A stretch of 64,000 nt of DNA from Gordonibacter massiliensis (ex Traore et al. 2017) (GTDB lineage Bacteria > Actinomycetota > Coriobacteriia > Coriobacteriales > Eggerthellaceae). Made by a program: the position numbers and the translations under genes. Under the pieces are notes generated by a model, which was not told the DNA's origin, searched no databases, and saw nothing but the letters and a program-made list of their open reading frames with translations. Shown piece by piece: positions 3,270 through 30,445 of the stretch. The first letter of the stretch is position 1. Every line of letters begins with the position of its first letter. The stretch spans positions 2,476,168 to 2,540,167 of the forward strand of contig LT827128.1 in NCBI GenBank assembly GCA_900170005.1, read 5' to 3'.

Positions 3270-4544
3270 ATGGACGTTAGCCAAATCGTATCCGTCGCCG
3301 TGTTCGTCGTGGTCATGGTGGCCATCATGACCGAGAAACTGCACCGCTCGCTCGCGGCCATCGTGGGCGCGATGGTGGTGCTGGCGCTGCATGTGCTGTC
3401 GTTCGACGCCGCCATGGAGCACATCGACTTCAACACGCTGGGCGTGCTTTTGGGCATGATGCTGTTCGTGTCCGTGGTGAAGCTGTCCGGCATGTTCGAA
3501 TTCTTGGCCATCAAGTGCGCACGGCTGGCCAAGGGCGATCCCTGGAAGGTCATGTTGCTGTTCGTGCTGCTCACCGCCGTGCTGTCGGCGTTCTTGGACA
3601 ACGTGACCACGGTGTTGCTCATCGGGCCCATGACGCTCACGGTGTGCAAGCTGCTCGACGTGAATCCCATCCCGTTCTTCATGACCGAGATCCTCGCGTC
3701 CAACATCGGCGGCACCGCCACGCTCATCGGCGACCCGCCGAACATCATGATCGGCTCGGCTGCCGGGTTCACGTTCTTCGACTTCATCCTGTACGACGCG
3801 CCGGCCGTCGTGATCATCCTAGCCGCCGTGCTGGCGGTGTTCTACTTCCTGTACGGTCGGAAGATGCACGTGAACGACGAGCATCGCGCGCGGATCATGG
3901 AGCTGGACGAGCATGCGATGATCAAGAACAAGCGCCTGCTCAAGCAAAGCTACGTCATGATCGGGCTCGTGGTGGTGGGCTTCATGGCCCACGGTGCGCT
4001 GGGGCTCGAATCGAGCGTTATCGCGCTCGGCGCGGCCGGCATCATCATGCTGATCTCGGGCGAGAGCATCGAGGAAGCGCTCTCGCAGGTGGAGTGGACC
4101 ACGCTCGCGTTCTTCGCCGGCCTGTTCGTCATCGTGGGGGCCATGGCGGAGACGGGCGTCATCGAGATGCTGGCGCAGGCTCTCATCGGGGCGACGGGCG
4201 GCAACGTGTTCGTCACCATGCTCGTGCTGCTGGTGGGGTCGGCCGTCATTTCCAGCTTCTTGGACAACATTCCGTTCGTGGCCACCATGATCCCCATCCT
4301 GCTGGCCATGGAGTCAACCGGCATGGACGTGACGCCCCTGTGGTGGGCCGTGTCGCTGGGCGCCTGCCTGGGCGGCAACGGCACGCTCATCGGCGCGAGC
4401 GCCAACGTGGTGCTGTCCGACATCAGCAAGAAGCACGGCCACGAGATCACGTTCGTGCAGTTCCTGAAGACAGGCTTCCCCATCATGCTGCTGACCGTGG
4501 TGATTGCGGGGCTGTACCTGGTGGTGCGGTTCCCGCCGGCGTAA
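3270..4544 (+). CDS. ArsB/NhaD-superfamily ion permease (SLC13-like)
   Basis: Polytopic membrane protein of 424 residues made of two homologous halves. Each half has the family's signature helix break, seen as FLDNVTTV followed by GGTATLIGDPPNIMIGSA in the first half and FLDNIPFVATM followed by GGNGTLIGASANV in the second. The DPPN motif is typical of the ArsB/NhaD-type Na+/H+ antiporter and P-protein group; the transported ion cannot be read from sequence. The start at ATG 3270 is chosen because AGGGGAG lies 6 bases upstream; a longer in-frame start at 3063 has no such signal. The gene is monocistronic, and the 297-bp upstream spacer holds an 18-bp perfect hairpin at 3204-3221. Confidence 0.85.
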   Translation: MDVSQIVSVAVFVVVMVAIMTEKLHRSLAAIVGAMVVLALHVLSFDAAMEHIDFNTLGVLLGMMLFVSVVKLSGMFEFLAIKCARLAKGDPWKVMLLFVLLTAVLSAFLDNVTTVLLIGPMTLTVCKLLDVNPIPFFMTEILASNIGGTATLIGDPPNIMIGSAAGFTFFDFILYDAPAVVIILAAVLAVFYFLYGRKMHVNDEHRARIMELDEHAMIKNKRLLKQSYVMIGLVVVGFMAHGALGLESSVIALGAAGIIMLISGESIEEALSQVEWTTLAFFAGLFVIVGAMAETGVIEMLAQALIGATGGNVFVTMLVLLVGSAVISSFLDNIPFVATMIPILLAMESTGMDVTPLWWAVSLGACLGGNGTLIGASANVVLSDISKKHGHEITFVQFLKTGFPIMLLTVVIAGLYLVVRFPPA

Positions 4545-4644
4545 GGACATCGGCGGCGGTTCGTCTGGAATGCTCGCATGCTTCCCGTAAGCCGAGCATG
4601 CTGCATCGAGCAGCCAAGAAATCTGAGGATTGCGCATCGACCTC

Positions 4645-4673
4645 TTGCAGGTGGAAGCGCCTTTCGGTATACT
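4645..4673 (+). promoter_or_regulatory. Promoter of tRNA-Thr
   Basis: TTGCAG at 4645-4650 and TATACT at 4668-4673 are separated by 17 bases, a good housekeeping sigma-70 promoter. Transcription would start near 4680, about 25 bases before the mature tRNA. Confidence 0.7.
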
Positions 4674-4704
4674 TCATTCTCGCGCTTCGCAAAGAAGCCG
4701 TGTT

Positions 4705-4780
4705 GCCAACGTGGCTCAGCTGGTAGAGCAACGCACTCGTAATGCGTAGGTCAGCGGTTCGAATCCGCTCGTTGGCTCCA
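4705..4780 (+). tRNA. tRNA-Thr (anticodon CGT)
   Basis: Cloverleaf of 76 nt with encoded CCA. The acceptor stem GCCAACG pairs perfectly with CGTTGGC. The anticodon arm is ACGCA-CTCGTAA-TGCGT, giving anticodon CGT for codon ACG. The T arm contains GGTTCGAATCC. Confidence 0.97.
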
Positions 4781-4789
4781 GAAAAAGTG

Positions 4790-4831
4790 CAGGCCAGCTA
4801 GGGAAACTTGGCTGGCCTGTTTCTTTGTTTT
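4790..4831 (+). terminator. Intrinsic terminator of tRNA-Thr
   Basis: CAGGCCAGC (4790-4798) pairs with GCTGGCCTG (4811-4819), followed by the T-rich tract TTTCTTTGTTTT. It sits 10 bases after the tRNA 3' end. Confidence 0.85.
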
Positions 4832-4911
4832 CAGGTGGATTTCGCGCGTGGTCAAAAATCTGGTCAAATTTCGCCAAGAGGGTGGAATCCTCCGCAAGCG
4901 CACCATTGATG

Positions 4912-5139
4912 CTACGGCCGGTTAACGGGAGAAGGCGCGGTGCCAAACGGCGTGCCGCAATCGGGACAGACCAAAACGAGGCCAGATCTTAAAACCGTTT
5001 TCGCTTCCTCGCATTTCGCGCAATAGAAAACAACCTGGTTCGGGTAGCTGATGCCACCCGATGCCTGCTCGAGCTCGTCCCCATCGAATTCGACGCCCTC
5101 GCAAGGAAAGCAGTCGGCAAGCACTCCTTCGACCACCAT
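4912..5139 (-). CDS. Small zinc-ribbon protein (75 aa)
   Basis: A 75-residue acidic protein with two CxxC knuckles, CAKC in the middle and CPDC near the C-terminus, spaced as in a single treble-clef or zinc-ribbon fold. Two more cysteines lie near the N-terminus (CFPC). ATG 5139 is preceded by a G-rich stretch (AAGGGGGCGGG) that can serve as a ribosome-binding site. Function unknown; such small ribbons often act as protein-protein or nucleic-acid adaptors. It could be misread non-coding sequence, but the paired cysteines argue for a real gene. Confidence 0.6.
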   Translation of the reverse strand: MVVEGVLADCFPCEGVEFDGDELEQASGGISYPNQVVFYCAKCEEAKTVLRSGLVLVCPDCGTPFGTAPSPVNRP

Positions 5140-5431
5140 GATCGACCCGCCCCCTTTCTACGTGCACCGCACGCGAAGCGTCCCCTATCTGAATCATAGA
5201 CCGAATCGCAAGCAAAACGCGAGATCATGCGCACGAACACCCCTCCAAACGAAACGAACGCCAAGATGCGCGGCCGTGCTCAACGGCAGGGTTATCTTCA
5301 AAGCCCGGGCATTATCATAGTCAAGCGCCCAATAAGCGCGCTTTCGTATCGGCACGTCGGCGGCTGTGGCGAAGCGATCGTCGCAAAACGCTGATAGCAA
5401 GCAGATCGCAGAGTGAAAAGGAGCCATCATT

Positions 5432-5710
5432 ATGGGACTTATCAACATGGGAAAGAACGCGGAAGACAAGGCGCTGGAGAAGCTGGCTGTGTACTTGGAC
5501 AACATGAACCTTCAGGAGAAGGACGGAACGGTCCATGCGGGCGCGTTCGAGCTGGCGGGCGGCTATAGTCGCAAGAACACGTCCCGCATCCTCAACGGCG
5601 TGCTGGAGTTCATGCAGAAGCAAGGCTACGAAATAGTGAACATGCAGATAGCCCCCAGCGGCATGGGCGACAGCCTTATGAGCTGCATGGTGCTCGTCGT
5701 GTACAAATAA
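5432..5710 (+). CDS. Conserved-looking small protein of unknown function (92 aa)
   Basis: Predicted cytoplasmic protein of 92 residues with no signal peptide or membrane segment. It begins MGLINMGKNAEDKALEKLA and contains a helix-turn-helix-like stretch (GGYSRKNTSRILNGVLEFM, about residues 49-67) followed by a Met-rich beta segment at the C-terminus. AAAAGGAG lies 9 bases before ATG 5432, so translation is well supported. It is a single-gene unit convergent with the HsmA-type gene. No family is recognised; a small DNA- or RNA-binding protein is one possibility, but this is inference from the predicted helices only. Confidence 0.7.
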   Translation: MGLINMGKNAEDKALEKLAVYLDNMNLQEKDGTVHAGAFELAGGYSRKNTSRILNGVLEFMQKQGYEIVNMQIAPSGMGDSLMSCMVLVVYK

Positions 5711-5818
5711 CCCGCCATGCCCTTGCCGGCGTTCCCGCACTCGCATGGCCCCACTCGCCGCTTGCAGCCGCCGTCGCGTTCGACCCGCAACGGCGGCCGT
5801 TGCGACTGAAAAAGGCCG

Positions 5819-6313
5819 TTACCCGCGCGAAGCGTGGTGCTTGCGCCCGCGCAGGGCGGTGAGGGCGACCAGAAGGGCGGCGGCGCCCACCACGACGAGG
5901 GAGCCGATGCCAGCCTGCAGGTTGGCCAGATGCAGCATGGGCACGCCCTGCAGAACGCCCAGCGTGTACGGCATGAGCCAGAACAGCCACACCACGATGC
6001 TGAACGTGTGGAAGCGCTGCTTGGCGCGCTCGCTGCCCCGAACGTACGTGACGGTGGCCCACGTGGCGTGTGCGGCCATGAGCATGATGGCGAGCACGCC
6101 GGAAGCAGCGTGCATTCCCAAGGCGGCGTCGCCCCCGCTTTGCGCCATGAGCGTCATGATGGTGGTGCCGGTGGTGTCGAAGGCGAAGCCCGTCCAAAAC
6201 AGAACGAGGTTGCGCTTCGTGAGCGAGTGCCGACGCTCGTCGAACACTCCGATGGTGTAGAACACGAGCGCGAGGCTGATGGTGGCCGTCGCCAATATCA
6301 ATTGGATGGACAT
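5819..6313 (-). CDS. HsmA-family (TIGR03987) integral membrane protein
   Basis: A 164-residue membrane protein with about five hydrophobic helices and a positively charged C-terminal tail (LRGRKHHASRG). The N-terminal half, with FYTIGVFDERR and WTGFAFDTTGT, matches the TIGR03987/HsmA family of unknown function. Start at ATG 6313 is chosen because AAGGAAGCG lies just upstream; a longer frame to 6388 has no such signal. The promoter and three palindromic sites (GAAC-N3-GTTC) lie between it and the divergent tocopherol-cyclase-family gene. In this family such genes are often controlled by TetR-type repressors; none is encoded next to it here. Confidence 0.8.
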   Translation of the reverse strand: MSIQLILATATISLALVFYTIGVFDERRHSLTKRNLVLFWTGFAFDTTGTTIMTLMAQSGGDAALGMHAASGVLAIMLMAAHATWATVTYVRGSERAKQRFHTFSIVVWLFWLMPYTLGVLQGVPMLHLANLQAGIGSLVVVGAAALLVALTALRGRKHHASRG

Positions 6314-6379
6314 GGTCGATCGCTTCCTTTCGTTGGCCGGGGTCTGCGCAAGCAGGCTCCGAACGCGGACATTTTTGAA

Positions 6380-6464
6380 AATGAACATCGTTCATTTAAA
6401 CTGAACGGCGTTCATTATAGTCGTGACGCTGAGGAATGCAAGCCTTTTCTGAACAATGTTCATT
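6380..6464 (-). promoter_or_regulatory. HsmA promoter with three GAAC-N3-GTTC operators
   Basis: On the minus strand TTGCAT (6441-6436) and TATAAT (6419-6414) are separated by 16 bases, giving a strong promoter for the HsmA-type gene. Three palindromes of the form GAAC-N3-GTTC lie at 6383-6393, 6403-6413 (overlapping the -10 edge) and 6451-6461 (upstream of the -35). The first two are exactly 20 bp apart, two DNA turns. The layout suits a dimeric repressor of TetR type. Confidence 0.65.
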
Positions 6465-20096: not shown

Positions 20097-21380
20097 ATGG
20101 GCTTTCTTTCGAGGTTCGAAGGCAAGATGGAAGACACGTTCGAGGGAGCGGCCGACCGCATGGTCAACGCCCCCATCTCGCCCGTGCAGATTGCCAAGAA
20201 GGCCGAGAAGCAGATGCGCCGTGAGAAGATGGTGGGCGCCGGAAAGCAGTACGCCCCCACGCTCTACACGGTGCTCGTGAACCCCGAGGACGATCAGCGC
20301 CTGTTCGGCTACTATCCCACGCTGGCCGGGGAAACGGAAACGTACCTGGCGGCGAAGGCCGCCGACGAAGGGTTGGTCATGGATGGGCAGCCCCTCGTGC
20401 GCTTCATCGTGGACGAAGGTTTGAAGCACGGTAAGTTCGACGTCATCGCCGAGCCGGTGGCCGCGCCCATCATCGCCCAGCTGCGCGCCGAGGAGATGCA
20501 GCGCTACGGCATCGGCGGCGGGGCGGCTCCGGCAGGCTACGGCGCGGCTCCGGCCCAACCCTACGGCTACGGTCAGCCTGCGGCGCCCGCCGGCGGATAC
20601 GGAGCGCCCGGCTACGGCGCGAACGGCGCCGCGTTCTCCGGCTACGCCGGAGCGGGCGATCAGGAGATCGCCCCAACGGTTCAACCGAGAGCTGCGTATC
20701 CGGCAGCGGATGCCGCGCCCGCCTATGCCCAGCCCCAGCCCTATCAGGACCTCGACGCGGGTTTCGATGAAGCCGCAGGATACGACGACTTCGACCAGAA
20801 CGGCAAGCCGCCCCTGCCCTACGTGCCCGAAGACGAGATAGACTACTCCATCGACTACGGCGAGTACACGTTCGACAGCCAGGACTTCGACGACTACCGC
20901 CAGAACGGCCGCTCGCAAGGCGCACCCATCCCCAACGGCGCCGCGGCGGCGGGAGCCGCAGTCGCGGCAGGCGCGGCGGGAGCCGCAGTCGGCTATGCCG
21001 CCCAAGCCCCCGCAGGGGCGCCCGTCGCCGCCGACACGGTGGTGTTCGCGGGCGGAGCCGGGCAGGCCAACCCCGTGCCCGACCAGCGCGCGGTGCGCGC
21101 GAGCCTCATCGACACCACGAACAACCGCACCTACACGCTGGCGACGTCGCGGTTGCTCATGGGCCGCGAGTCGAAGAACGACATCGTGGTCAACGACATC
21201 AACGCCAGCCGCACCCACGCCGAGCTGCGCTTCGAGCCCCAGGGCGTATGGACCATCACCGACTTGGGCTCCACGAACGGCACGCTGGTCAACGGCGCCG
21301 AGATAGCCACCCAACCGCTGTACGAGGGCGACCGCATAACCATCGGCATGACGAACTTCGTGTTCACCCAGGCGCAGTGA
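20097..21380 (+). CDS. fhaA: FhaA: DUF3662 and FHA domain protein
   Basis: A 427-residue cytoplasmic adaptor. The N-terminal DUF3662 domain begins MGFLSRFEGKMEDTFEGAAD and contains the conserved NPEDDQRLFGYYPTLAGE stretch. A long disordered middle (about 145-330) is rich in Gly/Ala/Tyr/Pro with acidic tyrosine repeats. The C-terminal FHA domain shows GRESKNDIV, SRTHAEL and DLGSTNGTLVNG, the phosphothreonine-binding set. In actinobacteria FhaA is a PknB partner that modulates peptidoglycan synthesis and lipid II flipping. It leads the cluster fhaA-fhaB-PP2C-SEDS/PBP-pknB. Confidence 0.92.
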   Translation: MGFLSRFEGKMEDTFEGAADRMVNAPISPVQIAKKAEKQMRREKMVGAGKQYAPTLYTVLVNPEDDQRLFGYYPTLAGETETYLAAKAADEGLVMDGQPLVRFIVDEGLKHGKFDVIAEPVAAPIIAQLRAEEMQRYGIGGGAAPAGYGAAPAQPYGYGQPAAPAGGYGAPGYGANGAAFSGYAGAGDQEIAPTVQPRAAYPAADAAPAYAQPQPYQDLDAGFDEAAGYDDFDQNGKPPLPYVPEDEIDYSIDYGEYTFDSQDFDDYRQNGRSQGAPIPNGAAAAGAAVAAGAAGAAVGYAAQAPAGAPVAADTVVFAGGAGQANPVPDQRAVRASLIDTTNNRTYTLATSRLLMGRESKNDIVVNDINASRTHAELRFEPQGVWTITDLGSTNGTLVNGAEIATQPLYEGDRITIGMTNFVFTQAQ

Positions 21381-21435: not shown

Positions 21436-21849
21436 GTGATCGACGTCGTACTGCTGATCGGACGCCTGCTGTTCGTGGCGCTGCTGTACCTGTTCCTGTT
21501 CGCCATCATGAAGACCGGCATCGGCCTCGTGCGCGGCCAACGCAAGAAGGAGCGCACGTGGAACCTGTCGGTGGAGCGCGGCCCCAAGGAGCTGCGCGGC
21601 GTGTCCATCGTCGTGCGCGGGCCCGTTATCGTGGGCCGCAGCCCCGGAGCCGACATCGTGGTGGGCGCGGGTTACGTGTCGGGCCGCCACGCGCGCTTCT
21701 CCCTCATGGGGCAGAACCTGTTCGTTGAAGATTTGGGCTCCACGAACGGCACGGCCGTGAACGGGCAGCTCATCGGCGAGCCGGTGGCCCTGAAGAACGG
21801 CGACGTGGTCAACGTGGGCGACGTGGCCATTCGCGTGAGGTTCGCCTAA
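21436..21849 (+). CDS. fhaB: FhaB: membrane-anchored FHA domain protein
   Basis: A 137-residue protein starting with GTG 21436 after GAGGAG. One N-terminal membrane helix (about 3-24) is followed by a basic linker and an FHA domain with GRSPGADIV, SGRHARF and DLGSTNGTAVNG. FhaB (FipA-interacting) binds phosphothreonine on PknA/PknB substrates at the cell pole or septum. Its stop overlaps the ATG of the phosphatase gene by one base (TAATG). Confidence 0.92.
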   Translation: MIDVVLLIGRLLFVALLYLFLFAIMKTGIGLVRGQRKKERTWNLSVERGPKELRGVSIVVRGPVIVGRSPGADIVVGAGYVSGRHARFSLMGQNLFVEDLGSTNGTAVNGQLIGEPVALKNGDVVNVGDVAIRVRFA

Positions 21850-23108
21850 TGGCCGCCGAACGCTCGTACAAGTCGACGCCGCACACGCGCAAAGGCGCCA
21901 CCACCACGTTCGGCAGCCGCACCGACATCGGCTGCTTGCGCGACCACAACGAGGACAGCCTCATCGTCACGCCTCCCCTGTTCGCCGTCGCCGACGGCAT
22001 GGGCGGGCACGCAGCCGGCGAGGTGGCCTCCGAGATTGCCGTGAATGTGCTGGCCGAGCAGGCGCCGGCCCATCCCGACCCCGAGGCCCTCGGCCGCGCG
22101 GTGGAAGAGGCGAACCGCGCCATCATCCACGCGGCCCGCGAAGGACGCGGACGCGAGGGCATGGGCACCACCGTGACCGCCGCCATGCTGGAAGGCGAAC
22201 GGCTCATCGTGGCCCAGGTGGGCGACTCGCGCGCCTATCTGCTGCACCAAGGCAAGCTCCAACAGCTCACGCGCGACCACAGCCTTATGGCCGACATGAT
22301 AGAAGCCGGGCAACTCACGCCCGAGGAGGCGCGCACGCACCCGAACCGCTCGGTTATCACCCGCGCGCTGGGGAGCGACCCGCACACCCAGCCCGACCTG
22401 TACGAGATCAACGTGGAGACGGGCGACCGTTTGCTCGTATGCTCCGACGGCCTTTCGAGCATGGTGCGCGACCAGGACATAGAATCGGTGCTGGCCCGCG
22501 TACGCGACCCGCAGCGTTGCGCATCGCAGCTGGTGAACGAGGCTATAGCGGCCGGCGGCCACGACAACGTCACCGTGATCGTGGCCGACGTCACGGGCTT
22601 CGCCGAGGTGCGCCGCAAGAAGATGGCGCGCAAAACGAAATTCAGCATCGCGCTCGTGCTCGTGCTGTTCGCTGCCATCGTGGGCGCCACGGCCTGGGGC
22701 ACGAACGAGTACCTGCACAACGCCGCCTACCTCATCGACCAAGACGGCAAGGTGGCCATCTACCGCGGCGTGCCGGGCAATGTGTTCGGCCTGAGCTATT
22801 CCGAGCTGGTGGAATCCACGGACGTGGCGGTGAGCGACTTGCAGCCCGGGTTCCAGGAACGGCTGAAGGACGGCTGGCGCGTGGACAGCGTGGAAGCCGC
22901 CGAAGAGCTGGTCAAGGAATACCAAGCGGACATCGACGCCAAAGCGAAGCAGGGCGAGGCCCAAAAGAGCGCCCAGGGTTCGACCGAAGGCGATAAGACC
23001 GCAGACGGCGCCTCGACCAACGGCTCGACCGCGACGGGCGCCGGCGCCAACGGCTCGCCCGACGCGAACCCGTCCGCTTCCGCCGGCACCCAAGGCGGTG
23101 CCGCATGA
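21849..23108 (+). CDS. PP2C-type Ser/Thr protein phosphatase
   Basis: A 419-residue phosphatase that reverses PknB phosphorylation. The catalytic domain (about 20-255) carries the metal-binding motifs RTDIGCLRDHNEDS, DGMGGHAAGE, GTTVTAA, VGDSRAYL and SDGLSSMV, and ends with GGHDNVTVI. A membrane helix lies near 265-285 (ALVLVLFAAIVGATAW), followed by an extracellular domain of about 135 residues with a low-complexity Ser/Thr/Gly end. This matches actinobacterial PstP. It is translationally coupled on both sides (TAATG with fhaB, ATGA with the SEDS/PBP gene). Confidence 0.94.
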   Translation: MAAERSYKSTPHTRKGATTTFGSRTDIGCLRDHNEDSLIVTPPLFAVADGMGGHAAGEVASEIAVNVLAEQAPAHPDPEALGRAVEEANRAIIHAAREGRGREGMGTTVTAAMLEGERLIVAQVGDSRAYLLHQGKLQQLTRDHSLMADMIEAGQLTPEEARTHPNRSVITRALGSDPHTQPDLYEINVETGDRLLVCSDGLSSMVRDQDIESVLARVRDPQRCASQLVNEAIAAGGHDNVTVIVADVTGFAEVRRKKMARKTKFSIALVLVLFAAIVGATAWGTNEYLHNAAYLIDQDGKVAIYRGVPGNVFGLSYSELVESTDVAVSDLQPGFQERLKDGWRVDSVEAAEELVKEYQADIDAKAKQGEAQKSAQGSTEGDKTADGASTNGSTATGAGANGSPDANPSASAGTQGGAA

Positions 23109-25870
23109 CGCGGCGCAACATCGAGCTCATCCTGCTGTGCGTGGCGGCGCCCTTCGTGGTGCTGCTGTTCGCCATGCTGGCCATAAACAAGGGGCAGAGC
23201 CTGGACATGACCACGCTGGGCGTGCCCATCGGCATCTTCGCCGCGTTCGTCATCGCCCACCTGGCCACCCGCAAGTTCGCGCCCAAGGCCGACCCGGCCA
23301 TCCTGCCCATCGTGTTCGCGCTTTCGGGCATAGGCATCTGCTTCGTGGAACGCCTGGCGCCCAAGCTCGCCTTGGGCCAGGTCATGTGGCTGTTCCTGGG
23401 CGTAGCGTGCATGGTGCTGGTCATGGTGCTGGTGCGCAACCTAGACAAGGTGGCCAAGTACAAGTACACGCTCATGATCGTGGGCTTCCTGCTGCTGCTC
23501 TCGCCGCTGGTGCCGGGAATCGGCCAGGAGATCTACGGCAGCCGTATCTGGCTGGGCATCGGCAAGTTCTCGTTCCAACCCGGCGAGATCGCGAAGATCG
23601 TCATCGTGCTGTTCCTGGCGGGCTATCTGGCGCAGAACCGCGAGATGCTCTCCGTGTTCACGTGGCGCGTGGGCCCGTTCAACCTGCCCGATATCCGCGT
23701 GCTGCTGCCGCTTCTGCTCATGTGGCTGGTGGCGTTGGTCATCGTCGTGTTCGAGAAGGACCTGGGCAGCGCGCTCGTGTTCTTCTTCCTGTTCCTCATC
23801 ATGCTGTACGTGGCCACCGGCAAGAAGTTCTTCCTGGTGGTGGGCCTGGGGCTCATCGCCATCGGCGGCGTGGGCGCGTTCATGGCGTTCAGCCACGTGC
23901 AGGTGCGCGTGAACAACTGGCTCGACCCCTTCGCCGACGCGCAGAACACGGGCTACCAGCTGGTGCAGGGCATCTACTCCATCGCCGACGGCGACCTGTT
24001 CGGCGTGGGTATCGGTCGCGGTTTGGCCGAGCAGATCCCCGTGGTGGAGAGCGACTACATCTTCGCCGCCATCGCCGAGGAGATTGGCCTGTTGGGAGCG
24101 GCCGGCGTGCTGCTGCTGTTCCTGTGCCTGGCCATCCGCGGCTTCGTGACGGCGGCGCGCGCGAAGAGCGACGTGAGCTCGCTGGTGGCCGTGGGCCTCA
24201 CCACCATGATCGTGCTGCAGGCGTTCATCATCGTGGGCGGCATCACCCGGCTCATCCCCCTCACGGGTCTCACGCTGCCCTTCATCAGCCAGGGCGGATC
24301 GTCGCTTCTGGCCAGCTTCATCGCGGTGGGCTTCCTGCTGCGCTGCGGCGACGAGGGCACCGGCGTGGAAACCGAGGTGGCCAGCGCCACCAGCTCGCTG
24401 CATGCGAACAGCGTGCTGGGGCGCGTGTCGCTGGGCAAGCGGCTTACGCACGCCATACTCATCCTATCCGTGCTGTTCGCGCTTCTGGTGGCGAACCTCA
24501 CGCTCATCATGGTGGTTCAGGCGAACTACTACCAGAACATGCCCGGCAACAACCACACGCTGGCGAAGGAGGCGCGCACCGAGCGCGGCACCATCTCCAC
24601 CTACGACGGCACGGTGCTGGCGCAGAGCGTGCAGCAGGACGACGGCACGTACGAGCGCGTCTACCCGGCGGGCGATCTGGCCAGCCAGGTGGTGGGCTAC
24701 GCGTCCACGCAGTTCGGCACCTCCGGCATCGAGGCCGCCGAGAACGACACGCTGAAGGGCCAGCAGAACTTCGCCAGCTGGACCGACGTGCTGAACTCGC
24801 TGGCGGGCATCGGTGGCGTGGGCAACGACGTCACGCTCACGCTCAACTCCAAGATACAGCAAGCCGCGCAGGACGCGCTCTCGGGATACGCGGGTGCCTG
24901 CGTGGTTCTCGACCCCGATACGGGCGCCGTGCTGGCCATGGCCTCCTCGCCCACGTACAATGCGGCCGATTTCGCGGCGGAGATCGAGAAGGCCAACGCC
25001 AACCCCGACGGCGTGAGCACGTTGCTGAACCGCGCGATTCAAACGCTCTACGCCCCCGGCTCCACGTTCAAGATCGTGACGTTGGCAACGGCGCTCGAGG
25101 ACGGCGTGGCGAAGGAGGACACCGTGTTCTCATCGCCCGGCACCATGGAGATAGGCAACGGCACCGTTTCGAACTTCAATAAGAACGATTACGGCAACAT
25201 CACGCTCGCCCAGGCCACGGAGCTGTCGAGCAACACCGCGTTCGCCCAGTTGGGCGTTGATATGGGCGCCCAAAAGCTCGTAGACGGCGCCGAGAAGTTC
25301 GGCTTCAACAAGGACATCGACTTCACGCTGGACACCGCCCTCATGTCGCTCATGCCCGAACCCAACGAGATGACCACCTGGGAAACCGCCTGGGCCGCCG
25401 CCGGCGAGCCGGTGAACCCCATGAACCACAAGAGCCCCGCCGGCCCGCAGGCCACGGTGCTCGAAATGGCCATGGTCGGTTGCGCTATTGCCAACGACGG
25501 CACCATCATGAACCCCTACCTGGTAGAGGGCATCTACAACGCCAACGGCGAGCGCAGCTTCTCCGCCACGCCCAACAAGTTCCTGCAGGCCGTGAGCAAA
25601 GAGACGGCGAACCGCGTGAAGGACGTGCTCAAGGGCGTCGTCACGAACGGCACGGGCACCGCGGCCGCCATCGACGGCGTGGAAGTGGCCGGCAAGACGG
25701 GCACGGCCGAGAAGACGGACAGCAACGACAGCTGGTTCGTGGGCATGGCCCCCGCCGACAACCCGCGCGTGGTGGTGGCCATCAACTTGGAGGACGCCGC
25801 CGAGGGCACGGGCACCGAGCGGGCGCAAAATGTGTTGAAAACGGCCTTGCAGGTGCAAGGGCTTTTGTAA
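23105..25870 (+). CDS. SEDS glycosyltransferase (RodA/FtsW) fused to class B penicillin-binding protein
   Basis: One uninterrupted 921-codon frame joins two enzymes normally made as separate proteins. Residues 1-430 are a RodA/FtsW-type polytopic polymerase, with the conserved re-entrant region ending PFISQGGSSLL. A further membrane helix near 455-475 leads to an extracellular transpeptidase with S653-TFK, S708-SN and K864-TG, the three penicillin-binding motifs in order. The pair builds and crosslinks peptidoglycan. In mycobacteria rodA and pbpA are adjacent genes at this position in the pknB cluster; here the stop between them is gone. ATGA overlap with the phosphatase gene. The fused state fixes stoichiometry at 1:1. 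Confidence 0.95.
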   Translation: MTRRNIELILLCVAAPFVVLLFAMLAINKGQSLDMTTLGVPIGIFAAFVIAHLATRKFAPKADPAILPIVFALSGIGICFVERLAPKLALGQVMWLFLGVACMVLVMVLVRNLDKVAKYKYTLMIVGFLLLLSPLVPGIGQEIYGSRIWLGIGKFSFQPGEIAKIVIVLFLAGYLAQNREMLSVFTWRVGPFNLPDIRVLLPLLLMWLVALVIVVFEKDLGSALVFFFLFLIMLYVATGKKFFLVVGLGLIAIGGVGAFMAFSHVQVRVNNWLDPFADAQNTGYQLVQGIYSIADGDLFGVGIGRGLAEQIPVVESDYIFAAIAEEIGLLGAAGVLLLFLCLAIRGFVTAARAKSDVSSLVAVGLTTMIVLQAFIIVGGITRLIPLTGLTLPFISQGGSSLLASFIAVGFLLRCGDEGTGVETEVASATSSLHANSVLGRVSLGKRLTHAILILSVLFALLVANLTLIMVVQANYYQNMPGNNHTLAKEARTERGTISTYDGTVLAQSVQQDDGTYERVYPAGDLASQVVGYASTQFGTSGIEAAENDTLKGQQNFASWTDVLNSLAGIGGVGNDVTLTLNSKIQQAAQDALSGYAGACVVLDPDTGAVLAMASSPTYNAADFAAEIEKANANPDGVSTLLNRAIQTLYAPGSTFKIVTLATALEDGVAKEDTVFSSPGTMEIGNGTVSNFNKNDYGNITLAQATELSSNTAFAQLGVDMGAQKLVDGAEKFGFNKDIDFTLDTALMSLMPEPNEMTTWETAWAAAGEPVNPMNHKSPAGPQATVLEMAMVGCAIANDGTIMNPYLVEGIYNANGERSFSATPNKFLQAVSKETANRVKDVLKGVVTNGTGTAAAIDGVEVAGKTGTAEKTDSNDSWFVGMAPADNPRVVVAINLEDAAEGTGTERAQNVLKTALQVQGLL

Positions 25871-25945: not shown

Positions 25946-27946
25946 GTGACCGGAAACATGACAGGCAGGGTGTTCAACAACCGCTACCAGATAACCGAGC
26001 GCATCGGCATCGGCGGCATGGCCGAGGTGTACCGCGCGCAGGACAACGTGCTCGGGCGCCTGGTTGCGGTGAAGGTCATGCTGCCCCAGTACGCCGCCGA
26101 CCCCAACTTCACCCAGCGCTTCAAGCAGGAGGCCGCCGCAGCCGCCAACCTGCAGAGCCCGTACATCGTGAACGTGTACGACTGGGGCCAGGACGACGGC
26201 ACGTACTACATCGTCATGGAATTCGTGCGCGGAAGCGATTTGAAAACGGCCATCAACGAGCGCGGCGCCATCAACCAGCGCAAGGTGGCCGAGATTGGCT
26301 CGCAGGTGTGCCAAGCCCTCACCGTGGCGCACAACCTGGACATCATCCACCGCGACATCAAGCCGCAGAACATCATGGTGCAACCCGACGGCAACGTGAA
26401 GGTCATGGACTTCGGCATCGCGCGCGCCAAGAACTCCGTGATGACGCAGACGTCGTCGGTGCTGGGCACGGCGCACTACATCTCGCCGGAGCAGGCGCAG
26501 GGCAAGGAGCTCACCGCCGCCAGCGACATCTACTCGCTGGGCATCGTGCTGTACGAGGCCGCCACGGGCAGGCTGCCCTTCGACGGCCCCGACGCCGTGA
26601 GCGTGGCCATGAAGCAGGTGAACGACCTGCCGGCCCCGCCGCGCGAGATCAACCCCGACATCGATCCCGGCCTCGAGGCCATCATCATGCGCGCCATGGC
26701 GAAGAACCCCGCCGAGCGGTTCGCCACCGCGCAGGACATGCGCTACGCGCTGAACGACTACCTGGCCGGGCGTCCCGTGAACGCGGGCAGCTTCACCAGC
26801 GCCGAAACGGCCGTCATGGGCGGCGTGGTTCCCCCTATGGCCGTGGCCGACGGCACCGCCGTCATGCCCGCCATGGGCGGCAACGGCGTGAAGCCGGCGG
26901 GCACGTCGAACGGCGGCAAGAACTTCCGCGTGGACGACGGCAAGAAGAAGAGCAACAAGAAGACCATCGGCATCGTCATCGGCATCATCGCCGCGCTGGC
27001 CGTGGTGGGCATTGCGGCGTACGCCCTCATGGGCGGCTTCGCCACGGGCGACCCCGTGCCCGACGTGACGGGCAAAACCGTCGAGGAGGCCACGGCCGAG
27101 CTGAAGGCCGCCGGCTTCGAAATGGGCACGGCCGACCAGAAGTACGATGAAAAGGTCGAAGCGGGCAAGATCATCAGCCAAGACCCCAAGGCCGGCGACA
27201 AACGCGAGAAGGGCTCGAAGATCAACGTGGTGGTGTCTCAGGGCATCGAGCAGGTAACCGTTCCCGACGTAACGGGCATGTCCGCCGAGGATGCTAAGCG
27301 AGTCATCAAGGAAAAGGGACTTGTGCCGAGTGCGGCGTCGTCCGATTCGTCTGAGTATTCGGACACCATTGCAAAAGGTTCAGTCGTCAAAACCAATCCT
27401 GCAGCTGGGCAGAAGGTCGAAAAGGGTGCTACCGTCGAATACGTGATATCGCTCGGAACCGAGGGCACCGAAGTGCCCAATGTGGTGGGCAAGCGCGAGG
27501 GCGAGGCCGTGGCCACGCTCAACAACGTTGACTTCAACGTGACCACCGATTATGCGTCCAGCGATACCGTGGCTGAAGGCTTGGTCATTAGCCAGAACCC
27601 TGGTGCGGGCAAGACGCTTAAGCCGGGCGAGACCGTCAACATCGTGGTCAGCACCGGCAAGGACAAGCCTTCCAGTTTCACCGTGACCGCCTCGGTTTCG
27701 GGTGAGGGCGGCTACGTGTCCCCGACGACCATGGAGGTTGACGAGGGCGGTAGCGTCACCTTCACCGTCACGCCCACCAACGGCTACACGGTGTCGTCCG
27801 TCACCGACACGAACGGCAACACCTACACCGTGTCCCCCAGCGGCGGCAGCTTCACCGTGAGCAACGTGAAGAACAGCATCGCCGTGACCGTGGTGTTCAA
27901 ACAGTCGACGCCCACCCCCACGCCAGACAGCGGCACGACGAACTAA
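25946..27946 (+). CDS. pknB: Ser/Thr protein kinase PknB with PASTA repeats
   Basis: A 666-residue receptor kinase starting at GTG 25946 after AAAGGAG. The kinase domain (about 10-270) has GIGGMAEVYRA, catalytic HRDIKPQN (H135, D137), DFGIARA and GTAHYISPEQ. One membrane helix lies near 345-367. Outside the cell come three PASTA repeats, recognisable by VPDVTGKT, VPDVTGMS and VPNVVGKR, which bind muropeptides or lipid II. A further C-terminal repeat domain of about 75 residues (EGGYVSPTTMEVDEGGSVTF...) and a Thr/Pro tail are unusual for PknB. Bases 27290-27660 have lower GC and different codon use than the rest. Confidence 0.95.
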   Translation: MTGNMTGRVFNNRYQITERIGIGGMAEVYRAQDNVLGRLVAVKVMLPQYAADPNFTQRFKQEAAAAANLQSPYIVNVYDWGQDDGTYYIVMEFVRGSDLKTAINERGAINQRKVAEIGSQVCQALTVAHNLDIIHRDIKPQNIMVQPDGNVKVMDFGIARAKNSVMTQTSSVLGTAHYISPEQAQGKELTAASDIYSLGIVLYEAATGRLPFDGPDAVSVAMKQVNDLPAPPREINPDIDPGLEAIIMRAMAKNPAERFATAQDMRYALNDYLAGRPVNAGSFTSAETAVMGGVVPPMAVADGTAVMPAMGGNGVKPAGTSNGGKNFRVDDGKKKSNKKTIGIVIGIIAALAVVGIAAYALMGGFATGDPVPDVTGKTVEEATAELKAAGFEMGTADQKYDEKVEAGKIISQDPKAGDKREKGSKINVVVSQGIEQVTVPDVTGMSAEDAKRVIKEKGLVPSAASSDSSEYSDTIAKGSVVKTNPAAGQKVEKGATVEYVISLGTEGTEVPNVVGKREGEAVATLNNVDFNVTTDYASSDTVAEGLVISQNPGAGKTLKPGETVNIVVSTGKDKPSSFTVTASVSGEGGYVSPTTMEVDEGGSVTFTVTPTNGYTVSSVTDTNGNTYTVSPSGGSFTVSNVKNSIAVTVVFKQSTPTPTPDSGTTN

Positions 27947-27960
27947 CTGCAAGAGCAAGT

Positions 27961-27994
27961 AACGAGAAAGCCGCCAGTAGGCGGCTTTCTCGTT
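27961..27994 (+). terminator. Terminator of the fhaA-pknB cluster
   Basis: AACGAGAAAGCCGCC pairs with GGCGGCTTTCTCGTT across AGTA, 14 bp after the pknB stop. Few T follow, so the 15-bp stem itself must do most of the work. Confidence 0.75.
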
Positions 27995-28130
27995 GTCGGG
28001 CGACAAGTTCTGCCCATACGCCCTGTCGAGCAGTTGCCATCGCAACAACAGCTGCATGCACGTTCGATCGAACGACCCCGCAGCGTCGTACACTGGGTGG
28101 ATTGCCCGCGAATCCGAAAGGCCCTTCGGA

Positions 28131-28832
28131 ATGAATCACGTCCTTATTCCCCTAGTCCTCGCAGCCGTCATCGTCGTCGCCGTCTGCCTGGTTTCCCTAG
28201 CGAATCTGAAGTCGCAGCAGCGCAATGTCGAAACCGCTTGGCACCATCTGAACGAACTGAGGCGGCACGGGATCGAAATCGTGCCCACGTTCGTGGCCGC
28301 CGTCGGAAAAGACGAAGAGGCGTCGCGTGGATCGGGTGGTGCATCAACGCCGCTGCGCTGGGCGCTAAACGACGTCGAGTCCGCCTCGCGCACTGCCGCC
28401 CAGGCCGACAACCCCCCTGCTGCCGCAGCTGCCGACGACCGGCTCGTGCAAGCCGTCGAGCGCGTATACGCGGCGGCGGAGGTCGATACGGCTTTCGTGG
28501 CCAGCACCGCCAGCCGCCAAGCGAGCTCCGAGCTCGATTCCGCCATGAGCGCCATCTCCCAAGAGCAGCAGATATACAACAACACGGCCACCATCGCCGC
28601 CAACGCGCAGCGCTCTTTCCCCGCCGTGCTGTTCACCAAACGCCTGGGGCTGAGCGAGCCCGAACGCTACGAATCGGAAGCGGCCGTCCGGCGCGCCGCG
28701 CTCGACTGGACCCGCGAAAGCCTTCCTTCGCTCGCCGATGCGTCGCCCCATGTCATGAGCCCCCAAATGCTCTGGGTATCCAGCATGGCCGACCTCGCCA
28801 TGGACGACCGCACCACCGAACGACGCCGCTAG
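28131..28832 (+). CDS. LemA-like membrane protein
   Basis: A 233-residue protein. An N-terminal helix (about 4-24) is followed by NLKSQQRNVETAWHHLNELRRHGIEIVPTFV, which matches the LemA pattern of one helix, then R-x-V-x-x-A-W...L-P-x-x-V. The remainder is a long alpha-helical bundle on the outer or inner face of the membrane. ATG 28131 is preferred over a longer frame because AAAGG lies upstream and the membrane helix then sits at the N-terminus. Role in the family is unknown; it has no obvious partner here. Confidence 0.72.
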   Translation: MNHVLIPLVLAAVIVVAVCLVSLANLKSQQRNVETAWHHLNELRRHGIEIVPTFVAAVGKDEEASRGSGGASTPLRWALNDVESASRTAAQADNPPAAAAADDRLVQAVERVYAAAEVDTAFVASTASRQASSELDSAMSAISQEQQIYNNTATIAANAQRSFPAVLFTKRLGLSEPERYESEAAVRRAALDWTRESLPSLADASPHVMSPQMLWVSSMADLAMDDRTTERRR

Positions 28833-29335: not shown

Positions 29336-30445
29336 ATGCAAGAGCCCGCACCCGCCCTTTCCCGGCGCTCGTTCGTCGGCGGCGCTGCCGTCGTAGCCGC
29401 CGCTTCCCTCGCTTGCCCCTCGACCGCGTTCGCCGTGACCGCCGCCGAGAAGCAAGCCGAAGCCGATGCCGTGCGCAACCAGCTGGTCGGCCTGCAAGCC
29501 GATCTCGAGGCAGCAGAGGCGAACTACCACGTGGCCGTCATCGAGCAGCAAGCCGCGAAAGACGCGATGGATGCCGAGCAGGCCAAGATCGACGAGGCTG
29601 TCGGAAAAATCGCCGACCTGCAGGACCGTCTGGGCATCAGAGCCCGCGGCATGTATCGATCCGGCTCGTCATCGTTCCTCGATTTCCTTTTGGGAGCCAC
29701 CTCTTTTACTGAGTTCACCCAAAACTGGGACATTTTAAGCCAGCTGAACGAAAGTGATGCGGTGTTGGTCGCGGAAACAAAAACGCTTCGTGAAGAGCTG
29801 GAAGCCTCAAAGCAGGAATACGCCAAGCAGGAAAGCATCGCCGCCGCCAAAACCACCGAGGCCAGGAAAATTCAAGAGGAGCATTCGGCAAAGGTCGCCC
29901 AAGCCAACGAGCTCATGGGTTCTCTCGACGCCGAGGCGCGCGAGCTTTTGGAACAGGAACAGGCCGCTGCCGCTGCCGCCGCGGCGGCTCAAATCGCAGC
30001 CGAAGAAGCGGCCAAAAACACCGCATCCAACAACGTCGTCGCTCCCGATGACAACTTCGGCGGCAGCACCGGCAGCATCAGCAGCGGCGTGGAGGTTCCC
30101 TCGCAGGGCTCCGTTGTCGACTACGCGCTGAGCCGCAAAGGCTGCCCCTACGTTCTGGGAGCCGCCGGTCCCGACTCGTTCGACTGCTCGGGGCTCGTGT
30201 GCTGGGCTTATGCTCAAGTGGGTATCTCGCTCCCACACTACACAGAAGACCAAAAGGCTGTTGCTCGTCAGGTTGTAAACATCTCCGACGCACGTCCGGG
30301 CGATGTCCTGTACCGCCCCGGCCACGTAGGTATCGCCGTCGGGTATGGCGGCGTGCCCTATGTGCATGCACCGACCCCCGGCGCCTACGTGCGCGACACC
30401 GATCCCCTCTCTTGGTCGCAATTCACCTGCGCGCTGCGGTTCTAA
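29336..30445 (+). CDS. Secreted NlpC/P60 peptidoglycan endopeptidase with coiled-coil
   Basis: A 369-residue exported hydrolase. The N-terminus LSRRSFVGGAAVVAAASLA...AFA is a Tat-type signal (twin Arg, then a hydrophobic stretch). Residues 40-225 form a long coiled-coil of the PcsB/RipA type, split by a hydrophobic patch (FLDFLLGATSFTEF) that in relatives contacts FtsX. A Ser/Gly linker leads to the NlpC/P60 domain with catalytic C284 (DCSGL), H330 (GHVGI) and H344 (VHAP). It cleaves stem peptides during cell separation. AAGGAGG lies 8 bases before ATG 29336, and a terminator follows 29 bp after the stop. Confidence 0.93.
   Translation: MQEPAPALSRRSFVGGAAVVAAASLACPSTAFAVTAAEKQAEADAVRNQLVGLQADLEAAEANYHVAVIEQQAAKDAMDAEQAKIDEAVGKIADLQDRLGIRARGMYRSGSSSFLDFLLGATSFTEFTQNWDILSQLNESDAVLVAETKTLREELEASKQEYAKQESIAAAKTTEARKIQEEHSAKVAQANELMGSLDAEARELLEQEQAAAAAAAAAQIAAEEAAKNTASNNVVAPDDNFGGSTGSISSGVEVPSQGSVVDYALSRKGCPYVLGAAGPDSFDCSGLVCWAYAQVGISLPHYTEDQKAVARQVVNISDARPGDVLYRPGHVGIAVGYGGVPYVHAPTPGAYVRDTDPLSWSQFTCALRF

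Follow-up and report, generated by a model that had tools for sequence, protein, structure and literature searches.

A Fused SEDS–PbpA Gene in the PknB Cluster of Gordonibacter massiliensis, a Probable Single-Chain Peptidoglycan Synthase Recurring through the Coriobacteriia

Architecture of the Fusion Gene

The stretch of DNA analysed here, which we refer to as the window, comprises 64,000 nucleotides of Gordonibacter massiliensis (contig LT827128.1, positions 2,476,168 to 2,540,167). On its forward strand, where the cluster genes FhaA-like to PknB also lie, a single open reading frame (ORF; nt. 23105–25870, ATG to TAA, 921 codons) joins a RodA/FtsW-type glycosyltransferase of the shape, elongation, division and sporulation (SEDS) family to a class B penicillin-binding protein (PBP) of the PbpA type. 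The initial annotation, made from the sequence alone, had described one 921-codon frame with a SEDS polymerase and a transpeptidase, and this is borne out by three Pfam domains, all above their gathering scores: FTSW_RODA_SPOVE (PF01098, residues 87–414, 250 bits against a gathering score of 26.4), PBP_dimer_2 (PF21922, residues 494–576, 81.6 bits), and Transpeptidase (PF00905, residues 597–915, 214.3 bits). A GT51 glycosyltransferase domain was absent among the Pfam matches to the fusion, in which three families were matched at E ≤ 0.001.

The SEDS moiety (residues 1–413, nt. 23105–24343) was also matched to FtsW and RodA structures by phmmer. In these alignments D317 (codon at nt. 24053–24055) coincides with the aspartate of the 'TDF' motif in the solved FtsW/RodA chains, which we take to be D297 of the Escherichia coli FtsW, making D317 the equivalent of the SEDS catalytic aspartate. 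FtsW D297, located in extracellular loop 4, is treated as the putative catalytic residue in PMC8765783. Downstream of the SEDS moiety lie a linker (residues 414–447, nt. 24344–24445) carrying the motifs GDEGTG (415–420) and LGR (438–440), as seen in alignments, a PBP-moiety transmembrane helix (residues 448–471, nt. 24446–24517) that aligns with the N-termini of separately encoded PbpA proteins, a PbpA-type dimerisation or pedestal domain (residues 494–576, nt. 24584–24832), and the transpeptidase domain (residues 597–915, nt. 24893–25849). The latter contains the catalytic motif SxxK (S653-x-x-K656, nt. 25061–25072), SxN (S708-x-N710, nt. 25226–25234), and KTG (K864-T-G, nt. 25694–25702), located by translation and alignment at the residues that had been named at the outset (S653, S708–N710 and K864). 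PF00905 together with SxxK, SxN and KTG marks the second half as a class B PBP, and the single ORF with SEDS first and both domains present marks the whole as a natural SEDS–PBP fusion.

Among 91 fused rows, removal of 30 that were partial, duplicate or cut left 61 aligned fusions, 60 of them in the class Coriobacteriia and one (L110) outside it; for the A1 set, six near-duplicates were dropped, leaving 55. The SEDS residues W149, D219, R268, Q285 and D317, and the transpeptidase residues S653, K656, S708, N710 and K864, are invariant in 61/61 of these fusions. We consider it highly probable that the fusion is a single-chain actinobacterial RodA–PbpA peptidoglycan synthase, its SEDS half polymerising and its PbpA half cross-linking, which arose through loss of a stop codon. 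The SEDS half would polymerise lipid II via D317, and the tethered PbpA half would cross-link the new glycan via S653/K656, S708/N710 and K864; the sequence thus most likely describes a natural protein that polymerises and cross-links in one chain. We infer the enzymatic activity, the single chain in the cell, the topology, the function of the linker and control by PknB, as well as the fixed 1:1 complex in the cell that the initial annotation had envisaged.

Distribution of the Fusion across the Coriobacteriia

A search across the Coriobacteriia had been suggested as a check, and the fusion query was matched in 379 of 396 genomes of the class (E 1e-40), scoring two first-look candidates per genome, so the fusion recurs through the class and is no one-off. 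Four genomes of the same genus match residues 1–921 at 95, 90, 88 and 83% identity, all free of stops. The junction, read as one stop-free frame from the SEDS end to the PBP start, is open in all 83 in-class genomes read, from 19 family groups, which are loci fetched as best matches or family representatives rather than a random draw. A frameshift or stop in the linker, which had been named as evidence that would speak against a fusion, was found in none of these. A repeat search by name of 22 genomes from groups f2 and f3 gave a single piece in five; in the other 17 the match came in two pieces, each time within one open frame and separated by a longer linker. Separate genes were not seen in the class in this survey, with its two first-look candidates per genome and 17/396 genomes without a match.

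A collection of 80 named loci contained 39 single frames (36 Coriobacteriia-like, at 48–82% identity in the best segment, and 3 from Anaerolineae) and 41 loci that read as split. Counted among the latter is L181 (Collinsella vaginalis), in which a run of 742 N bases separates the halves, so that it may be either split or fused. The genera with fused loci include Gordonibacter, Paraeggerthella, Parvibacter, Olsenella, Collinsella, Atopobium, Ellagibacter and Slackia. Four of the named loci (L137, L138, L149 and L157) come from the same assemblies as loci of the class survey. The named collection is therefore not independent of that survey.

Counting against a fusion throughout the class are the 17/396 genomes in which none was matched, including all sampled genomes of family groups f8, f20, f24 and f29. 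Re-searching 11 of these 17 (all but G041, G113, G117, G121, G123 and G143) with all candidates scored and a looser cut-off recovered no fusion except a fragment of residues 747–915 at a contig start in G065. We also looked for PknB in 19 genomes (the 17 together with G093 and G349) and found it in six, all among the 17 (G065, G143, G069, G101, G145 and G117; loci L130–L135). In each of these six, the PknB match has no more than ~0.6 kb of contig ahead of it; the absence of the fusion from these assemblies is therefore unreliable, and fragmented assemblies explain the missing fusion in at least these six genomes. PknB was not found at E 1e-50 in the other 11 of the 17, whose assemblies may simply lack the cluster, with true loss as the alternative.

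The possibility that the single frame is a sequencing or assembly artefact, hiding a missed stop or frameshift, draws on three in-class genomes in which the frame is disrupted elsewhere in the gene (G030, G226 and G275). In G226 and G275 the disruption lies away from the junction, and in G030 the break falls near residue 780. Given that the junction is open in 83/83 independent in-class genomes, an artefact is so improbable that we rejected it. The G030 interruption itself (~218 bases; L129, reverse strand, ~3767–3986) occurs in a single-contig genome and contains what we take to be Illumina/Nextera adapter-like sequence; it is probably an assembly artefact.

Split Relatives and Origin of the Fusion

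Outside the class, the SEDS and PBP genes are separate and abutting in 18 distinct loci. Measured from the SEDS stop to the closest start codon (the analyst's choice, with weak TTG starts included), the distance is at most 4 nt in 16/18 loci, the remainder being L118 (−8) and L113 (+12). SEDS and PBP are in the same frame in 9/18 loci, a proportion that is not unbiased, given that the search ranks loci with in-frame neighbours higher. Loss of the stop between abutting genes explains the fusion, and we propose that the stop codon between the abutting, SEDS-first genes of the PP2C–PknB cluster would have been lost a single time, at the base of the class or close to it.

We placed 73 concatenated rows in a tree (a quick LG+G4 search in which the root was not inferred). 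The 32 in-class fusions group together on a single branch, with full support (100) in the Shimodaira–Hasegawa-like approximate likelihood ratio test (SH-aLRT). The fused or split label requires five changes on this tree, three of which are forced by the starred branches. Fusion has thus happened more than once overall and, as far as seen, once on the line leading to the Coriobacteriia. The fusions from Anaerolineae and Rhodococcus fall outside the Coriobacteriia clade, the Rhodococcus rows being long branches; those from Anaerolineae (L183, L193 and L203) may have one origin or several, and other phyla were sampled via the 80 named loci. A further in-frame fusion outside the class, in G667 (L110, nt. 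3600–6419), has a GC-rich, dissimilar linker, and its neighbour in the tree is a split pair from the same family group. It comes from one assembly of 74% completeness, and may be a real fusion or an assembly error.

Every fusion found is SEDS-first, an order that the query favoured. The N-terminus of class B PBPs is cytoplasmic, and the C-terminus of the SEDS moiety should be as well, if the model's helices are counted from the extracellular loop with D317. With both ends expected on the cytoplasmic side, joining SEDS-first genes should raise no topological conflict. This suggests a topological rule under which SEDS-first pairs can fuse, for which the evidence is modest: the query was itself SEDS-first, and the two other SEDS arrangements of the genome are PBP-first, one of them with adjacent genes.

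Predicted Structure and Nearest Solved Structures

An AlphaFold2 model of the fusion (55 sequences) has a mean predicted local distance difference test score (pLDDT) of 87.1 and a predicted template modelling score (pTM) of 0.67. Values of pLDDT below 50 are confined to residues 420–436, and a helix spans residues 435–471. On the basis of this confidence profile and the helix extents, we place the linker at residues 414–447 and the PBP transmembrane helix at ~448–471. The initial annotation was thus right that a linker exists, although its position near residues 430–480 needs correction, as the alignments also indicate.

All 50 Foldseek matches listed for the model are PBP chains. The nearest solved structures are transpeptidase fragments from Eggerthella lenta and Atopobium parvulum, followed by PbpA of Mycobacterium tuberculosis, and the E. 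lenta crystal structure 4mnr superimposes on the transpeptidase part of the model with a root-mean-square deviation of 1.0 at 73% identity. The E. lenta and A. parvulum entries are named peptidoglycan glycosyltransferases yet contain the transpeptidase part, a naming that fits with their having been cut from fusions. By their titles, the A. parvulum structures are complexes with a number of different beta-lactams. Beta-lactam-bound transpeptidase structures from apparent fused homologues thus already exist, and are easily overlooked as parts of fusions.

Among the Chloroflexota, we noted that the fused Anaerolineae loci L183, L193 and L203 and the split loci L185, L186, L206 and L209 keep the SEDS aspartate, with SxxK, SxN and KTG degenerate or unalignable. 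By their sequences, the PBPs beside or fused to SEDS in these loci are apparent pseudo-transpeptidase partners, while the Chloroflexota row L176 retains the transpeptidase motifs.

These several Chloroflexota, fused and split, lend some colour to the idea that the transpeptidase half of our fusion is a mere allosteric activator of the SEDS half. The invariance of its five transpeptidase residues in 61/61 fusions and the beta-lactam complexes among its nearest solved homologues argue against this, and we regard a purely activating role as very unlikely.

Conservation of the Linker

Across the 60 in-class fusions, the linker combines an acidic motif (GDEGTG) with a basic one (LGR...KRL). L438, G439, R440 and R446 are present in 60/60, D416, G420 and L447 in 59/60, and T419 in 58/60. 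In the 18 split relatives, neither GDEGTG nor LGR was seen at the end of RodA or at the start of PbpA. In 11 near relatives from the family of the window, the ratio of nonsynonymous to synonymous differences (pN/pS) is 0.181 for the linker, the lowest of all segments of the fusion, compared with 0.213 for the SEDS moiety, 0.273 for the pedestal, 0.379 for the PBP transmembrane helix and 0.380 for the transpeptidase; these values are rough, given a short linker and pairs that overlap in what they compare. By these sequence measures the linker is under purifying selection.

It could be that the fusion was fixed by chance after the stop was lost and now behaves like a split pair, its linker a passive tether. 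Abutting split pairs do serve other classes of the phylum, and linker length, counted over residues 414–446, varies from 29 to 78 residues, with the middle of the linker less constrained. The residues kept in all or nearly all in-class fusions, the lowest pN/pS of any segment, and two motifs unseen in split relatives argue the other way, and we consider passive fixation possible but rather unlikely. Because of these conserved motifs and the low pN/pS, the linker is probably more than a tether; as part of the single-chain synthase, it would lie in the cytoplasm, and its probable role is to keep the PBP helix on the SEDS core or to take up a signal from the cytoplasm.

A more specific and distinctly speculative version is that the linker acts as a class-specific clasp, in which GDEGTG (with T419) and the LGR...KRL helix would lock the PBP helix on the SEDS core. 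PknB would phosphorylate T419, the FHA proteins would read the mark and the PP2C phosphatase would reverse it, switching polymerisation and cross-linking together. A role for T419 phosphorylation is a guess.

Several observations weigh against the single-chain synthase with a functional linker as we describe it. The middle of the linker taken alone has a pN/pS of 0.294 in the 11 near relatives; T419 is substituted in two of the 60 in-class rows and in the named loci L144, L145, L162 and L164; and L164 has LGK in place of LGR. With a pTM of just 0.67, the packing of the SEDS half against the PBP half is not established by the model. The Chloroflexota relatives suggest that SEDS proteins may keep a PBP partner with degenerate motifs, so the fusion alone is no proof that both halves act. 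Finally, the linker holds potential internal starts: GAGG precedes an in-frame GTG at codon 421 in the window and 11 of the 59 other in-class rows (12/60), L034 has ATG at codon 421, and codon 425 is ATG, GTG or TTG in 41/60 in-class fusions, making internal initiation conceivable.

Initiation at GTG421 or codon 425 would yield free PbpA in addition to the fusion, that is, two products from one frame. However, GTG is not enriched at position 421 (13/32 valine codons, versus 2747/5197 gene-wide), 28/60 in-class rows lack valine there, and a Shine–Dalgarno-like match ahead of a start at codon 425 occurs in 1/61 rows (L104), leaving a second product improbable. Residue 425 is methionine in 33/60 in-class fusions and encoded by GTG in the window (nt. 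24377–24379); the start-type codons at this position may be what is left of the original pbpA start.

Setting in the PknB Cluster and Other SEDS Genes of the Genome

As the initial annotation had recognised, the fusion sits in a PknB cluster. Upstream lie an FhaA-like gene (nt. 20097–21380; PF12401 FhaA_N and PF00498 FHA), an FhaB-like FHA-domain gene (nt. 21436–21849; PF00498), and a PP2C phosphatase of the Stp1/PstP type (nt. 21849–23108; NF033484 above cut-off), whose stop and the fusion's ATG share 4 nt (ATGA). A PASTA-domain Ser/Thr kinase of the PknB type follows (nt. 25946–27946; NF033483 above cut-off). The order FHA genes, PP2C, fusion and PknB holds in 20 in-class loci fetched with their flanks, except for genes cut by contig ends. 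A scan for promoters and terminators found no more than in shuffled sequence. Downstream of PknB, Pfam identified a LemA-family protein (nt. 27993–28832) and an NlpC/P60 protein with a PcsB-like coiled coil (nt. 29336–30445), both perhaps cell-wall related.

The rest of the genome holds two more SEDS genes and four more transpeptidase-domain genes; with two further SEDS genes present, the fusion is a third, additional SEDS synthase. One of these two SEDS genes follows a PBP gene at a distance of 13 bases, in an array behind mreB and mreC (C1:576580-582444). The fusion (C1:2499272-2502034) lies apart from this mreB–mreC–PBP–SEDS array, and thus outside an MreBCD-linked Rod system. The other shares its strand with a PBP gene that lies ~6 kb upstream of it, and by position the two are presumably the FtsI/FtsW pair. 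The SEDS-first order is unique to the fusion among the three SEDS genes, the other two being PBP-first, one of them adjacent.

Comparison with Known Systems

The closest known counterpart is the mycobacterial RodA and PbpA of the pstP–pknB locus, which resemble the fusion in neighbourhood, PBP_dimer_2 pedestal and SEDS-first order. The locus is described as conserved in PMC6554272. The FHA, PP2C and PASTA-kinase neighbourhood of that locus is present in the window; in contrast, mycobacterial RodA and PbpA are two polypeptides, and the window encodes one (junction open in 83/83), with an added conserved linker. As one frame stands where a pair is expected, the gene can be placed as a fused derivative of the actinobacterial RodA–PbpA pair. 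Class A PBPs likewise carry a glycosyltransferase and a transpeptidase in one chain, although the glycosyltransferase of the fusion is SEDS (PF01098) and not GT51.

How SEDS polymerases and class B PBPs stay together and are switched on has so far been studied via artificial fusions. The initial annotation had likened the gene to these, and the likeness is apt: engineered E. coli RodA–PBP2 fusions have the same SEDS–linker–PBP order and are active (PMC6207328, PMC10449877). They were partly cleaved in the linker (PMC6207328), and a cryo-EM structure was obtained from one (PMC10449877). They differ in having an artificial linker (GGGSx3 or TSGSGSGS) and the E. coli PBP2 as partner, whereas the linker of the natural fusion is conserved. 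A fusion made by evolution, kept widely in a class and with its linker under selection, makes direct tests of the coupling possible.

The fusion is not the first natural SEDS–PBP fusion; its distinctive features are the class-wide spread and a linker of its own. No report of a Coriobacteriia SEDS–PBP fusion appeared among the literature matches listed, which is weak evidence of absence as most subscription papers lie outside the coverage. Natural SEDS–PBP fusions are mentioned in PMC10449877, with citation of the Rhodococcus RHA1 genome. The Rhodococcus fusions found here are, like that of the window, single ORFs with SEDS first and transpeptidase second, but are plasmid-borne, ~26–28% identical to the window's, and annotated as FtsW/RodA/SpoVE family proteins. 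Three of them were scanned; each has SEDS and transpeptidase Pfam domains, two have PBP_dimer, and one has neither dimer family. These divergent plasmid fusions (L217, L218 and L219, together with matches H19, H27 and H28) are of two types. The plasmid that bears L217 is typed as conjugative, and genes for a PP2C phosphatase and an FHA-domain protein adjoin the fusion there.

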